In this document: one piece after another, positions 1 to 38,716 of the stretch
Layout of the letters: every line of letters begins with the position of its first letter
Numbering within the stretch: position 1 is the stretch's first letter
Source: Tichowtungia aerotolerans
GTDB lineage: Bacteria; Verrucomicrobiota; Kiritimatiellia; Kiritimatiellales; Tichowtungiaceae
NCBI RefSeq assembly: GCF_009905215.1
Contig: NZ_CP047593.1
Coordinates: 3,414,900 to 3,478,899 of the forward strand
Length of the DNA stretch: 64,000 nucleotides
Reading direction: 5' to 3'
Notes under the pieces: generated by a model
What the model saw: the letters and a program-made list of their open reading frames with translations, nothing else
The model's database searches: none
What the model was told of the DNA's origin: nothing
Translations under genes and position numbers: made by a program

Positions 1-39
1 TTGTCAAGAATCTGCATCTCATCCCTAACTGGCGCGACT

Positions 40-54
40 TTCCAATGATTGGAA
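40..54. repeat. Dispersed palindrome, exact copy
   Basis: TTCCAATGATTGGAA, an exact match to TTCCA-N5-TGGAA, within the longer symmetric TTTCCAATGATTGGAAA. It lies left of the first recognisable gene, in sequence I assign to the integrated element. Confidence 0.85.
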
Positions 55-120
55 ACTTTGTACACTTTTTTTACCAAGCGTGGAAGCGAAGGCTGAAACA
101 ATCTGAAAAAGTACCGCGTT

Positions 121-1062
121 TTACTCAGATTTTAATTTCAGCCGGTTGAGAGCGGCGTAGTCTTCGAGCAGCAGCTCTTGCAGGCGGGTTCGTCCGCCGT
201 CCTGTACGCATTGGTCATCGATGCGGAGATAGAGCGGCACCAAGGCCGACTCTTCCGCTTGTTCCCGATGGGCCGTTGCGACGGCGAGCAGTAGAATCCG
301 CACCCGGTCGGCTGCGGTTTCGGCGTCGATGGCGTCCAGCATTTGATCGAGCGGCGGATTGAGCGGGTTTCCGCGTCCGCCAGCCGTGATGATGTTTTCC
401 AGCGCCATCTCAAGCTCGGGCAGTGTCATTCCGCTGATTTTCGGATCGCCGGCCAGCGTTTCGGCGACGGGCATGAGTTTGGCGCGTTTGTGGCCGTGGA
501 CAGCGGCAACGCTTCCTTCGCCGAGGCTTACGCATCCATCCCAAAGGATCGGTAACAGCCAGCAAAGGAAAAGAGTCAGGGCCTGAATCGCAACCCAAAG
601 CATCTGCGCCAGAAAGACGATGATGACCACTGCGGCCTGCACGGCGAAGGCAGCCAGGGCAAAGACGGCATAGACCATCTGGATGGTGGCGGCGTTCTTG
701 CCGCGTATCTGTACGCCCCCGATTTTGACCGATGAGCGGTTGGGCTTCATCCAGTTGAAGGTACCGATAGCCGTTTTGGTGGATGCACTGATTCCGCTTT
801 TGGAAAGGTTGAGTTTGGTCGGGCCTTTGCCGTACCGGCCCCGCAGCCGGAAATTGCCGTTCTGGAATCCGGCATTGGTTCCTTTGGCAATGCGGGTGGT
901 TGCCCGCACACCATGTTTGGAATTGGCGGTTAGATTGAGCCCGGCGACTTTGATCTGCTCCCGAACGGCGACCCCGCCGGTGCGGCTGATCCGCAAATGA
1001 CGTCCACGGTGCTCAATCCGCTTCTGCCTGCCGTCGCTGTCTTTCTCTCCGATGTTGAACAT
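121..1062 (-). CDS. Hypothetical membrane protein with a DUF4236-like segment
   Basis: A 313-residue protein with no firm family assignment. Residues 1-60 are basic. Residues 70-116 include LNLSKSGISAS (84-94), which resembles the SKSG-rich N-terminal segment of DUF4236 proteins; this is recalled by eye, not searched. A very hydrophobic stretch at about 127-174 should form two transmembrane helices. The C-terminal 130 residues are soluble, acidic and helical-looking. It starts 9 bp after the stop of the zinc-ribbon gene, so the two probably share a transcript. Both lie on the element side of the tRNA-Val scar, so they may be accessory genes. Function unknown. Confidence 0.6.
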   Translation of the reverse strand: MFNIGEKDSDGRQKRIEHRGRHLRISRTGGVAVREQIKVAGLNLTANSKHGVRATTRIAKGTNAGFQNGNFRLRGRYGKGPTKLNLSKSGISASTKTAIGTFNWMKPNRSSVKIGGVQIRGKNAATIQMVYAVFALAAFAVQAAVVIIVFLAQMLWVAIQALTLFLCWLLPILWDGCVSLGEGSVAAVHGHKRAKLMPVAETLAGDPKISGMTLPELEMALENIITAGGRGNPLNPPLDQMLDAIDAETAADRVRILLLAVATAHREQAEESALVPLYLRIDDQCVQDGGRTRLQELLLEDYAALNRLKLKSE

Positions 1063-1071
1063 AACAGTTTC

Positions 1072-1302
1072 CTAAAAGCGCGGCTCGGTTCCGTAAATAT
1101 CCAACTCGCAATCGGTGCATTTCCAGCGGGGGTCGTCATCTGCAACACAACAGCCGCCGAGAACAATGCGGCCTGCCTCAAGATCACGATCTAGCTTTTC
1201 GTCAAACATGGGCATGCCGAACAGATAGGACGCAATGCGATCCGATCCGCATTTAGGGCATTTGCGCGGCTTGCGGGTTCTTCTGATTTTGTCCTCTTCC
1301 AT
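1072..1302 (-). CDS. Small zinc-ribbon hypothetical protein
   Basis: A 76-residue cytoplasmic protein. It has two CxxC knuckles, CPKC (residues 15-18) and CTDC near residue 61, typical of a structural zinc ribbon. Between them lies a GGCC stretch, and PRWKCTDC leads into the second knuckle. This layout is common in small uncharacterised bacterial proteins. No catalytic residues are apparent, so a protein- or nucleic-acid-binding role is only a guess. It is the first gene of the leftward pair with the membrane protein at 121-1062. Confidence 0.65.
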   Translation of the reverse strand: MEEDKIRRTRKPRKCPKCGSDRIASYLFGMPMFDEKLDRDLEAGRIVLGGCCVADDDPRWKCTDCELDIYGTEPRF

Positions 1303-1689: not shown

Positions 1690-1734
1690 TTGACATGCAA
1701 GAGGTCACAGATTCGAATTCTGTATCGCCCACCA
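1690..1734 (+). other. 3' half of tRNA-Val(GAC): probable attachment-site scar
   Basis: The sequence reads as a tRNA from the anticodon loop to the end: loop TTGACAT with anticodon GAC (1690-1696), anticodon 3' strand GCAAG, variable loop AGGTC, T arm ACAGA-TTCGAAT-TCTGT, acceptor 3' strand ATCGCCC, discriminator A and encoded CCA (1732-1734). Upstream of the loop nothing pairs with GCAAG or with ATCGCCC, so the 5' half is absent. A tRNA 3' half starting at the anticodon loop is a classic product of tyrosine-integrase integration. Since the chromosome normally continues beyond the tRNA 3' end, the element should lie to the left and the restored tRNA outside the window. Confidence 0.7.
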
Positions 1735-1744
1735 CTTCAAATCA

Positions 1745-1771
1745 CTCCCAATCCAATGATTGGGAGTTTTT
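1745..1771 (+). terminator. Intrinsic terminator of the original tRNA-Val
   Basis: An 8-bp perfect stem CTCCCAAT/ATTGGGAG around loop CCAATG is followed by five T. It lies 10 bp after the tRNA 3' end, as expected for the terminator of the ancestral tRNA gene. The core CCAATGATTGG resembles the dispersed palindrome. Confidence 0.6.
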
Positions 1772-2261
1772 AGTTCCAAACCTGCACGCGCAGACGCTTT
1801 CGGCCCCATTTCAGCGCGTCAGCGTGCGAGTTGAAAAACAGATCGATCCGAGCCGGACCCTTGATGTCTCCGCCGCGATCTTCCACTTTTCCTGTTCCGT
1901 AGCCGGGAATATACATGACGGTTCTGAACGGATAATAATGCGTGTCAGCGGCAATCGTTCCTTTTTTTGCCTTCGTGCCTGACGCGGTGATCCCGACTTT
2001 TTTGGGTTTTCCTTTAAGAGGGCCGGACGAATAAACGGGCCGAAACGGCGGAATCCAGCTGCGATGCCATCCACAGCATTTTCCGCAGGGACAGTAGCCT
2101 GTCGTCTCAATCCAGATCGACTGAGGCGTTCCATTTGGAACCGTCGAGCAGCCCGCAAACAGCATCAAACAAAATAAACAACCACTGAATACACAGAAGC
2201 AGGTTTTCCAATGTTTGGAACGTTCCGCGTAACCTGTGTATTTCGTGGTTGTTTTCCTCAT
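1770..2261 (-). CDS. 3D-domain (MltA C-terminal-like) lipoprotein
   Basis: A 163-residue predicted lipoprotein: hydrophobic segment then lipobox LFAGC with Cys38. The C-terminal half holds a 3D domain: THYYPFRTVMYIPGYG, then DRGGDIKG and RIDLFF, giving the three conserved aspartates of the double-psi-beta-barrel found in MltA and related wall-active proteins. GYCPCGKCCGW near residue 57 is a Cys-rich motif often seen ahead of such domains. Likely anchored in the outer or inner membrane and acting on peptidoglycan; substrate unknown. The ATG at 2261 overlaps the ileS stop (ATGA). The n-region is unusually long and contains a copy of the dispersed palindrome (SKHWK), so the true start is uncertain. 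Confidence 0.75.
   Translation of the reverse strand: MRKTTTKYTGYAERSKHWKTCFCVFSGCLFCLMLFAGCSTVPNGTPQSIWIETTGYCPCGKCCGWHRSWIPPFRPVYSSGPLKGKPKKVGITASGTKAKKGTIAADTHYYPFRTVMYIPGYGTGKVEDRGGDIKGPARIDLFFNSHADALKWGRKRLRVQVWN
2188..2242. repeat. Composite palindrome with exact core
   Basis: The exact core TTCCAATGTTTGGAA (2206-2220) is flanked by AATACACAG (2188-2196) and its complement CTGTGTATT (2234-2242), and by CAGGTT/AACCTG. The whole could fold as a long hairpin. TGGAACGTTCCGCGTAA (2216-2232) recurs, with one substitution and one inserted T, at 5541-5558. Confidence 0.75.
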
Positions 2262-5200
2262 GCCTTTTGCAGAGCAATTACACACTGATGTCCATTGAGA
2301 TCAGCTTGCTCTCCGTCGACCTGAGCAGTTTCGATGGTGAGCGCGAGGACTTCGTTTTTAATGTACTCGTCGTAGGCAGCAATCGCTTCGCTGACAGCCT
2401 CGTCGGACGAAACGGTCAGGTTGATTCGATCGGTCACTTCGAGACCGGAGGTTTTGCGCAGGTTCTGCACTTCCTTAACCAGCTCGCGGGCGAGGCCTTC
2501 GCGAATCAAATCGTCATCTAGCTCGAGGTCGAGCGCCACAACCAGTGCGCCCTGCGTCTGTACGGCAAGCCCCTCTTTCGGTTCGTGCGCAACCAGAACA
2601 TCATTGGCGGTCAGCTCGAAGGTTTCGCCTTCCAGAACGATATCCGTGCTGCCACCGGCGGCGACCGCTTTCAGCGCGGCGTCGTCCAGATTGGCGATTG
2701 CGGAGGCAACCGCTTTCATCTGTTTTCCAAACCTTGGACCGAGCGCCTTGAAGTTGGCTTTTGCCGTGAGCGTTGCGAAACCGGACTCGTCATCCCCGAA
2801 GACCACGCTGCGAACGTTGAGCTCTTCTTCGATGATTTCTTTGAGTTCATCGACCTGATTGAGCAGTTCGCTGTCGCGGCTGACAACATCGAGGCGACGC
2901 AGCGGTTGGCGGACTTTGGCATCGTTGTCCTTGCGGAGCTGACGCCCCATCACGACGACATCCATAACAATGCGCATCTGTTTTTCGAGATCCTCGTCGC
3001 GCTTAGCGCCGGCGGCCGTCGGGAAGTCACACAGGTGTACCGACTCCGGCATATCGTCAGTGCGCAGGTTGCGGTAGATCTCGTCGGCAATGAACGGCGT
3101 GAACGGCGCGGCGATTTTGCAGAGCTCAATTAAAGTATGATAGAGCGTAACGTAGGCCTGCTGCTTGTCGCCGTCGTCGTCGGATTTCCAGAAACGGCGG
3201 CGCGAGCGGCGGATGTACCAGTTGGTCAGGTCTTCGATGAAGGCGACAAACGGACGGACCGCGCGCTGCAGGTCGTAGCTGTCCATTGCCGCGGTCACTT
3301 CCTGGCAAAGGTTTGCCAGCGAGCTTTCGATCCAGCGATCGAGCAGGTTTTCGCTCTGGCCCGGCCGGGTTCCATCCGGCGTCCAGCCGTCAACATTGGC
3401 GTAGGTGACGAAGAAGCTGTAGGAGTTCCAAAGCGGAATGAGCAGATGGCGCAGCGCGTGTTTCACTCCCTCTTCGGAGAAGCGAAGAGACTCACCTTTG
3501 ACGATTGGCGAGTTGATCATATAAAGACGAAGTGCATCGGCACCGTACTCGTGCACCACGTGCAGCGGGTCGGGATAGTTTTTCTTACTTTTCGACATTT
3601 TGTGACCGTCTTCGGCCAGCACGAGACCATTGACGACCACGTTCTTGAAAGCGGGCTTTTTGAAGAGCGCGGTGGAGAGCACCATGAGAGTGTAGAACCA
3701 GCCGCGAGTCTGGTCGAGCCCTTCGGCAATAAACTGCGCCGGGAAGTTTCCTTCAAAGTGCTCACGGTTTTCAAAGGGATAGTGCTGCTGGGCGTACGGC
3801 ATGGAACCGGACTCAAACCAGCAGTCGAGCACTTCGGGGGTGCGCTTGTAGGTTTTACCGTCCTTCTCGATAAGGATTTCATCCACAAAATGTTTATGCA
3901 GGTCGGTGACCTTTTTGCCGGAAAGCTCTTCAAGCTCGGCGGCGGAGCCGACACAGATCGTGTCATCGGGATCGTCGACGTTCACCCAGACCGGGATGCA
4001 GGAACCCCAGAAGCGGTTGCGGCTGATGTTCCAGTCCTTGGCATCGGCCAGCCAGTTGGCGAAACGCCTGGTGCCGACATGCTCTGGAGTCCAGTGGATC
4101 TGCTCGTTGTTAGCGAGCATTTCGTCGCGCAGGTCTTCGACACGAACGTACCACGCGTCGATGGCGCGGTAGATCAGCGGCGTATCGGTGCGTTCGCAGA
4201 AAGGATAGCTATGCTGGATGGTGGACTGATGGATCAGTTTACCTTCGTCTTTGAGGCGCTTGATGATCGCTTTGTCGGCATCTTTGCAAAACTGCCCTTC
4301 GTATTCCGGAACCTGCGATGTGAATTTACAGTCGACGTCGAGCGGCTCGACGAGCGGAATATTTCCAGCGGAGCAGATGCGGTAGTCGTCTTCCCCGTAA
4401 GCCGGAGCCATATGCACGATCCCCGATCCGTCTTCGGTCGAAACAAAGTCGTCATTGAGAACGACGAAGGAGTTTTCGTTGTCCTTAAAATAGTCGAACA
4501 GCGGCTCGTAGGTCAGTCCCTTGAGATCCGATCCCTTCATTTTTTTGAGGACGTCGTACTGCTCTTCTTTTTTGTAGTAGGCGCTGAGGCGGGCTTCCGC
4601 CAGCACGAAGACATCGCCGGATTCCTCATCACGAACAGCGACGTAGTCGATATCCGGCCCGGCGCAGATGGCGAGGTTGGAGGGAAGCGTCCACGGGGTG
4701 GTCGTCCAGACCAGCGCACAGGCGTTTTCGATGTCAAAGCCTTTGAGCTTAACGCGCACGGTGACGGACGGATCCTGCACGTCCTGGTAGTTGCGACCAG
4801 CCTCGAAGTTGGAGAGCGGCGTGTTAAGCTTCCAGCTGTAGGGCATGATACGGTGGGCGCGGTAGATGCGGCCCTGTTTCCAAAGTTCGGAAAAGACCCA
4901 CCAGATGGTTTCCATGAAATCCTTGTCCATGGTTTTGTAGTCGTTCTGGAAGTCGACCCAGCGGCCCATACGGGTGACGGTTTTTTCCCACTCTTCGACA
5001 TACGTGGAAACCATGGAGCGGCATTTTTCGTTAAACACGTCGATTCCGGCGTCAACAATGGCCGGTGCGCCGGCCAGCCCGAGCGCATCCTGCGCGAGGG
5101 CTTCGATCGGCAGGCCGTGGCAATCCCAGCCAAAACGGCGCTCGACGCGGTGGCCGCGCATGGTCTGGTAGCGGGGAACAATGTCCTTAATGGTTCCGGC

Positions 5201-37828: not shown

Positions 37829-38716
37829 TCAGGCCCGCGGATGAAACTGACGGTGGACGCCTTTGAGGCGGTCCGGATCAACATGGGTGTAGATCTGGGT
37901 GGTGGCGATATCGGCGTGACCGAGCATTTCCTGAATGATTCGTAATTCAGCGCCGTTGACCAGCAGGTGGCTGGCAAATGAGTGACGCAGCGAGTGTGGA
38001 TACACCGTTTTGGTGATCCCTGCATCGCGTGCGCATTGTTTGATCATGACCCAAATGGTTTTACGCGACATCGGCTGTTTCTGCCGACTCAGAAAAACGG
38101 TCTGCTCCTGAACGCCCGGAGAAAGTTGGGGACGTACTTCTTCGATATAACGTCTTACCCACTTAATGGCGGTTTTTGCAACCGGAACAACGCGTTCTTT
38201 GCGCCCTTTCCCGATACAACGCAAAAAATTTTCATCGAAATGCAGGTCGGTCAATTGCAGATCAGCCATCTCTGAAACCCGCAGACCAGATGCATAAAAC
38301 AGTTCCAAGATAGCCCGGTTGCGGATTCCCAGCGGAGTTTTGAGATCCGGGGCCTCAAACAGTCGGTCAATTTCTTTCGGCGTCAATACGCCTGGAAGCA
38401 TTTTCCAGACTTTGGGCGAGTCCATCGTTTCGGCGACATTGACGTCCAGCATTCCCTCCTGTGCCATCCATCGAAAAAACACCTTAAGCGACACTAAATG
38501 CCGAGACAGTGAGTTGGCGGATAACCCGCGCGCTTTCTCGTCCATCAAATGGTCGAGAATGTGCTTTCGGTTTACATCATTAAAAGTGCTGACGCCCCGT
38601 TTAGCCAGAAAGTCAATAAACCGGACAATATCATCCGCATATGCCATGCGCGTGTTTTGGCTCAAACCTCTTTCGAGGCTGACATAATCCAGGAAACTGT
38701 CCAGCAGTGCACGCAT
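37829..38716 (-). CDS. xerD: Tyrosine recombinase XerD
   Basis: A 295-residue site-specific recombinase, probably resolving chromosome dimers at dif with XerC. A SAM-like N-terminal domain (about 1-85) is followed by the catalytic domain: Arg in ASGLRVSEM, Lys in GKGRKERVVP, HSLRHSFASHLL, GHADIATTQIYTHV with nucleophile Tyr. Length is the usual 295-300. Start 38716 is preferred over an in-frame one at 38752. It is flanked by convergent rnfE and upstream purC. No partner xerC or dif site is seen. Confidence 0.92.
   Translation of the reverse strand: MRALLDSFLDYVSLERGLSQNTRMAYADDIVRFIDFLAKRGVSTFNDVNRKHILDHLMDEKARGLSANSLSRHLVSLKVFFRWMAQEGMLDVNVAETMDSPKVWKMLPGVLTPKEIDRLFEAPDLKTPLGIRNRAILELFYASGLRVSEMADLQLTDLHFDENFLRCIGKGRKERVVPVAKTAIKWVRRYIEEVRPQLSPGVQEQTVFLSRQKQPMSRKTIWVMIKQCARDAGITKTVYPHSLRHSFASHLLVNGAELRIIQEMLGHADIATTQIYTHVDPDRLKGVHRQFHPRA

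Follow-up and report, generated by a model that had tools for sequence, protein, structure and literature searches.

A half-tRNA scar in Tichowtungia aerotolerans borders a putative family of cargo-bearing, head-encoding integrated elements without recognised tails

The window, that is, the whole stretch of DNA analysed here, comprises 64,000 nucleotides of Tichowtungia aerotolerans (bases 3414900–3478899, forward strand, of the single 3.88-Mb contig NZ_CP047593.1). Its left end contains the last genes of an integrated element, designated E1, followed by half of a tRNA gene and the chromosomal flank, in the following order (window coordinates):

1–101, minus strand: 5′ end of an E1 cargo gene for a 1118-aa SNF2-type helicase (SNF2-rel_dom, Helicase_C)
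121–1062, minus strand: E1 cargo gene for a 313-aa putative membrane protein (weak, sub-threshold DUF4236 match)
1072–1302, minus strand: E1 cargo gene for a 76-aa, zinc-ribbon-like protein containing CxxC pairs (only sub-threshold zinc-binding matches)
1303–1689, no strand: gene-poor right end of integrated E1, stopping at the start of the 51-bp repeat
1690–1734, plus strand: 3′ half of tRNA-Val(GAC), the distal attachment copy (direct repeat with the intact tRNA)
1735–1740, plus strand: six extra direct-repeat bases past CCA (repeat alignment)
1744–1767, plus strand: terminator stem-loop, most likely the original one of the host tRNA-Val gene (unlike the proximal, apparently element-borne terminator)
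1770–2285, minus strand: gene for a 171-aa protein, chromosomal flank outside E1 (adjoins ileS in most of the genus)

The tRNA-Val(GAC) segment begins in the anticodon loop, includes the T arm, and ends with CCA, and its 5′ half is absent, as the earlier note had described; it is considered only a 3′ half because neither ARAGORN nor Rfam calls a tRNA at 1690–1734. The terminator that had been placed behind it is present as a ten-pair stem followed by a T run. Palindromes of the TTCCAATnnTTGGAA-like type recur intergenically (window approximately 44–58 and 2207–2221) and also within this tRNA terminator. The SNF2-type helicase gene spans genome positions 3411644–3415000 with an uncertain start codon, and its product is matched by 'HKD+Snf2' of PADLOC (E 5e-134). 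Outside E1, window positions 37874–38389 on the minus strand give the genome's best match to PF00589, in a 319-aa frame that is XerC/D-like by size.

The earlier note had predicted that an intact tRNA-Val(GAC) with the same 45 bp would lie to the left of the window on the same replicon, next to an integrase gene, and both were found: the tRNA is situated at genome 3382668–3382744 and the integrase gene at 3382909–3384219. The repeat copy at 3382700–3382750 is identical at 50 of 51 bases (E 2e-22 in the 45-kb stretch searched), by which a chance match was rejected, and a genome-wide search for the repeat returned E 5e-19 over 54 bases. The note had staked its reading on a copy of the 45 bp within approximately 200 kb to the left, and this copy, with the integrase beside it, lies 33.9 kb away. 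The integrase is of the tyrosine type (436 aa; PF00589, 1.2e-16) and starts approximately 165 bases past the tRNA. The 45 bp are one of the two direct-repeat ends of E1, a 33.9-kb integrated element (genome 3382700–3416589) that ends at approximately 1690 and continues leftward beyond the window, as had been anticipated. The feature in the window is thus an integration scar in a tRNA gene, of the ordinary kind, and the earlier note had read it correctly. Several tRNA-Val(GAC) genes of the genus (L133, L134, and others) are without such an integrase within the flank searched, and their surroundings differ from those of E1. An ancestral synteny between the 171-aa gene and tRNA-Val was also considered and rejected: the gene keeps with ileS in the genus and no tRNA-Val lies beside it there, so an empty site could not be demonstrated there.

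The head protein of E1 is present in exactly four copies in the genome, one in each of the following elements:

E1, 33.9 kb, tRNA-Val(GAC)
E2, 55.8 kb, tRNA-Val(CAC)
E3, 48.5 kb, tRNA-Ala
E4, 52.0 kb, tRNA-Pro

The same layout of tRNA, repeat, and integrase is found in E2, E3, E4, and the tRNA-Arg element of the congener G002, a 40.7-kb sister with a perfect repeat (48/48 bp). In all five elements, the anticodon loop marks the start of the repeat, which stops at CCA or shortly beyond it. Identity among E1–E4 amounts to 94–98% for the head proteins, 90–97% for the portals, and 53–78% for the integrases. Elsewhere in the genome, two integrases of equal score with equal 462-aa frames (G000:C1:536397–536996 and 2638967–2639566) probably represent a duplicated mobile element.

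The native copy of the attachment sequence was sought in the flanks and in the tRNA forms. On the integrase side, the flank past CCA in E1 (tRNA-Val) matches that in G002 (tRNA-Arg) with a Z of 15.7 against shuffles, whereas the distal flanks of the two elements do not match (Z −1.4); the proximal match fits a terminator brought by the element. In E2, the integrase-side tRNA has a mispaired acceptor stem, and the displaced copy ends in AACGCCC, the form in the tRNA-Val(CAC) genes of the genus listed. Because the E1 and G002 terminators match and the displaced copy of E2 keeps the genus form, the copy in the window and its terminator are most likely the displaced native tRNA end, and the intact tRNA-Val(GAC) gene most likely carries an element-borne 3′ half and terminator. 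The polarity of E1 itself is read solely from the terminator match, because a single base separates its two copies and the proximal form also occurs in two genomes of the genus, by which a polarity derived from the tRNA sequence alone was ruled out. The proximal flank of E2 resembles the distal flank of E3 (Z 15.4), a cross-match that this reading does not account for, and the distal flanks of E3 and E4 match each other (Z 15.7), most simply through a common insertion sequence with a 391-aa gene. This transposase-like gene, 98% identical between the two, lies directly after the tRNA scars of E3 (2956713–2957888) and E4 (2536579–2537754) and has GGCTCTTCCCCAAAGACGGGG-like flanking ends, which we take to be ISL3-like.

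By what is understood of tyrosine integrases, the integrase would have recombined circular E1 with the segment from the anticodon loop to CCA. The 3′ half and terminator of E1 would have joined the host 5′ half, such that the tRNA gene stays intact, and their native counterparts would have been displaced to the far end, where they would form the scar in the window.

Beside the integrase, on the opposite strand, E1 encodes first a 73-aa membrane-anchored protein and then a 174-aa protein with weak similarity to the papain-like YaeF. A DUF4376 protein (176 aa), which matches tail-fibre PHROGs at 4e-22, is next in order and is followed by two small proteins, a 134-aa protein, the major head protein, and a 140-aa protein. 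The major head protein corresponds to PHROG 1005 (6e-27) and matches no Pfam family at E 0.01. After the 140-aa gene come a Mu-type protease (PF10123), a Mu-type portal (PF06074), and a terminase (PF03237); beyond these are encoded sigma-region-4-like and primase/helicase-like proteins, a family A DNA polymerase, an exonuclease, an ERCC4 nuclease, and an excisionase-like protein (HTH). The cargo, running up to the scar, comprises a Type III restriction enzyme and methyltransferase, the SNF2 helicase, and genes of no assigned function, and the last two E1 genes together with the start of the SNF2 gene fall in the window at 1–1302. In E1–E4, approximately 2 kb before the terminase (in E1, G000:C1:3392094–3394133) are repeat-rich and apparently mostly noncoding, a possible packaging or replication site. 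This region ends in a short reading frame resembling a small terminase subunit, with an KPGQSGNPAGRP motif that is presumably a mark of this subunit.

The core common to E1–E4 (18–23 kb, the length for E3 excluding its separately placed integrase) includes the integrase, the excisionase-like HTH protein, replication genes, terminase, portal, protease, major head protein, and a protein with a neck fold; a primase is among the replication genes, as is, in E1, E2, and E4, the family A polymerase. The cargo (14–35 kb) varies, with Type III restriction and the SNF2 helicase in E1 and sulfatases and glycan enzymes in E2–E4. Among 50 scanned cargo and border proteins of E2–E4, a set that excludes four cargo genes that are short or cross piece borders, 12 match Sulfatase and others match polysaccharide lyase 8, GH95, GH38, sugar transporters, and regulators. 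The sulfatase family PF00884 has 138 matches in the genome (10 in E2, two each in E3 and E4, none in E1), so only E2 is clearly enriched. A sulfotransferase-like protein, just under the Pfam cut-off, is encoded in the post-head cluster of E2 (696074–696706), E3 (2952763–2953500), and E4 (2584438–2585151), not in that of E1, in a host that is rich in sulfatases.

The 134-aa protein is predicted by its fold to be a neck protein of the Mu type. Its predicted structure (pLDDT 86) has the fold of the Mu neck subunit and aligns with the Mu neck 5ydn at VIA Z 10.1 (rmsd 3.4, 108 residues), and the next neck matches are SaPI1 at 6.4 and Sf6 and P22 at 6.4 and below. Because the fold is helical and helical bundles can reach a high Z by chance, the filling of the top ranks by neck proteins is the stronger argument. 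A PDB profile search with this protein returned nothing convincing, and Foldseek alone gave E 0.9.

No tail tube, tape measure, sheath, or baseplate protein was recognised among the E1 proteins scanned against PHROGs and Pfam, the tail-fibre-like DUF4376 protein aside, and the tape measure family PF10145 has no match in the genome. The terminase family PF03237 has only four matches in the genome, those of E1–E4, so there is no resident helper of that terminase type. In the tail-less loci of relatives, 149 of 232 proteins downstream of the head gene were scanned, and no tail family occurs among the best 25 of 28 PHROG families, one protein showing a weak match to a head-tail connector family. 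In the control, 123 of 149 such proteins from tailed loci of distant cousins, the best 25 of 74 families include a baseplate wedge, tail proteins, and head-tail adaptors, so that tails of this group are within reach of the method; gene maps were sorted into the two classes by eye. Phages of this phylum are sparsely represented in PHROGs, so tails may have gone unrecognised. With an automatic label, noisy and imperfectly separated (24 short, 22 long, 28 unknown), post-head runs that are short and those that are long form clusters on the tree of head proteins, with nine changes versus 15.7 when shuffled and none of 500 shuffles as low; tail-lessness therefore looks old and kept.

Ordinary prophages that have lost their tail genes and are now decaying could present the same picture, which is considered unlikely here. 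A congener carries a decayed sister in tRNA-Val(CAC) (G012:C40:24.5–47.2 kb), truncated such that the terminase-to-head genes are gone and bearing restriction-like cargo, so decay also occurs; furthermore, in a related Verrucomicrobia genome, a 39-kb region with two Mu-like proteins and a terminase has been called a degraded prophage (PMC6920513). Decay is, however, difficult to reconcile with the same tail-less order being kept in the four copies, in G002, and in other genomes, and with the clustering of run lengths on the head tree. The head, portal, terminase, and protease genes are moreover open, with dN/dS between sisters of 0.03–0.12 (small genes up to 0.26) at a dS of mostly 0.4–1.4. 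These values indicate purifying selection on the shared genes, which argues against long decay, although it may have acted in earlier hosts.

Relatives of the head protein were found in 26 of 387 genomes of the phylum, at 44 loci in named genomes, mostly of PVC bacteria, and on 35 IMG/VR contigs, and the head protein has no match in 50,697 isolate phage records. In four further genomes, the head end adjoins a tRNA 3′ end (Glu, Gly, Leu, and Leu), with no second repeat within the stretch searched. Virus contigs that are circular or end-repeated were looked for without success: a terminal repeat is absent from 6 of the 16 records examined, three of the six being covered over 20,000/20,215, 20,000/20,023, and 40,000/40,153 bases. 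A different, 30-kb element at G234:C195:60897–91027 occupies tRNA-Phe, has an 88-bp repeat (88.6% identity), and carries an SNF2 helicase that shares 39% identity with the E1 helicase.

Of 14 homologues in relatives of a 103-aa protein of E1–E4, 13 have a signal-like N terminus, and in G002 two signal-like proteins follow the head consecutively. By a crude rule serving as predictor, signal-like N termini after the head are commoner in tail-less loci (71/191) than in tailed cousins (14/97; p 6e-5). Signal-like proteins, some of them lipoprotein-like, occur at the expected place of tail genes in L036, L040, L042, L045, L073, L078–L081, and G002:C3. A fold search with the 103-aa protein retrieved nucleoplasmin-like jelly rolls and, lower down, a phage cement protein; this match was set aside as functional evidence, the fold being common. 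The elements could accordingly be read as complete viruses in which the neck, the jelly-roll, and the following small proteins form an unusual short delivery device replacing the tail. The small post-head genes are conserved and under selection, the signal-like N termini accumulate as described, and E1 has its DUF4376 protein, all of which speak for such a device; nevertheless, the 103-aa protein of E1–E4 itself has no signal part, exported proteins fit poorly with heads built in the cytoplasm, and the signal rule is rough and the loci were classed by eye, so that this explanation appears rather improbable. Equally doubtful, and to be taken as speculation, is a phylum-wide head-only family in which exported proteins would replace the tail module and heads would leave or enter cells without any tail, owned or borrowed, shuttling glycan-degradation and defence cargo.

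The reading favoured here, with some confidence and by analogy, is that E1 and its sisters are cargo-carrying, capsid-forming satellites that would be mobile and borrow the tails of a helper. Upon induction, the element would excise and then replicate itself, its DNA would be packaged in its own heads, and these would be completed by the tails of a co-infecting tailed phage; the transfer would spread the cargo, i.e., the restriction system, sulfatases, and glycan enzymes. Counting against satellites are the DUF4376 tail-fibre match, the head-tail connector match of a relative, the decayed sister, and the 1.65-fold range of lengths (33.9–55.8 kb) despite nearly identical heads, which is odd for a head of fixed size. 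One fixed head would therefore not fit all elements, and the same lengths would suit domesticated heads of the gene-transfer-agent kind, packaging host or partial element DNA. This last explanation is highly improbable, as each element brings an integrase, direct repeats, and replication genes of its own and occupies a different tRNA. To our knowledge, gene transfer agents have neither an integrase nor attachment sites of their own, and E1 has both an integrase and direct repeats.

Known systems resemble the putative satellites in part. Tycheposons, described from Prochlorococcus, are integrative elements of marine bacteria that target tRNA genes by means of tyrosine recombinases, carry cargo that can be exchanged, and include satellite forms; in their tRNA target, type of recombinase, and swappable cargo they appear similar to the present elements. 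The portal, protease, and neck fold of E1 are those of Mu-like tailed phages, from which E1 differs by having no recognised tail module and a tyrosine integrase at a tRNA instead of transposition. Tycheposons are listed among proposed satellites in one source (PMC11389934). According to three sources, cf-PICIs encode capsid and packaging functions and rely on helper tails (PMC10690885, PMC13230959, PMC11389934), and the cf-PICI capsids placed in a tree in one of them belong to PF05065 (PMC13230959). The elements described here are similar to cf-PICIs in combining capsid, protease, portal, head-tail connector, and terminase without a recognised tail. By contrast, E1 has neither a PF05065 capsid nor an HNH nuclease (no HNH family among the E1 proteins scanned), its core is Mu-like in portal and protease, and the elements are 34–56 kb in length with a family A polymerase and 14–35 kb of cargo; the likeness may be regarded as an analogy. 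MulchRoom and MiniFlayer, satellites of Streptomyces phages, likewise supply capsid and packaging genes themselves and lack tail homologues (PMC10690885); they differ in their actinomycete hosts and in that no primase is reported for them, whereas E1 is integrated and has replication genes. Elements of the present kind were not found described in the literature on Kiritimatiell- or Verrucomicrobi- prophages or satellites, subscription papers being mostly outside the search.

Beyond the scar, the gene content delineates a family whose members bear cargo and encode heads but have no recognised tail, for which the mechanism set out above is proposed. If E1 and its sisters are indeed satellites, a sulfatase-rich lineage would swap polysaccharide-degrading and defence genes via large elements that make heads and borrow tails. 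Capsid-forming satellites would be extended to a phylum for which no described ones were found, with a much larger cargo, and such elements would account for the 'defective prophages' reported in Verrucomicrobia.
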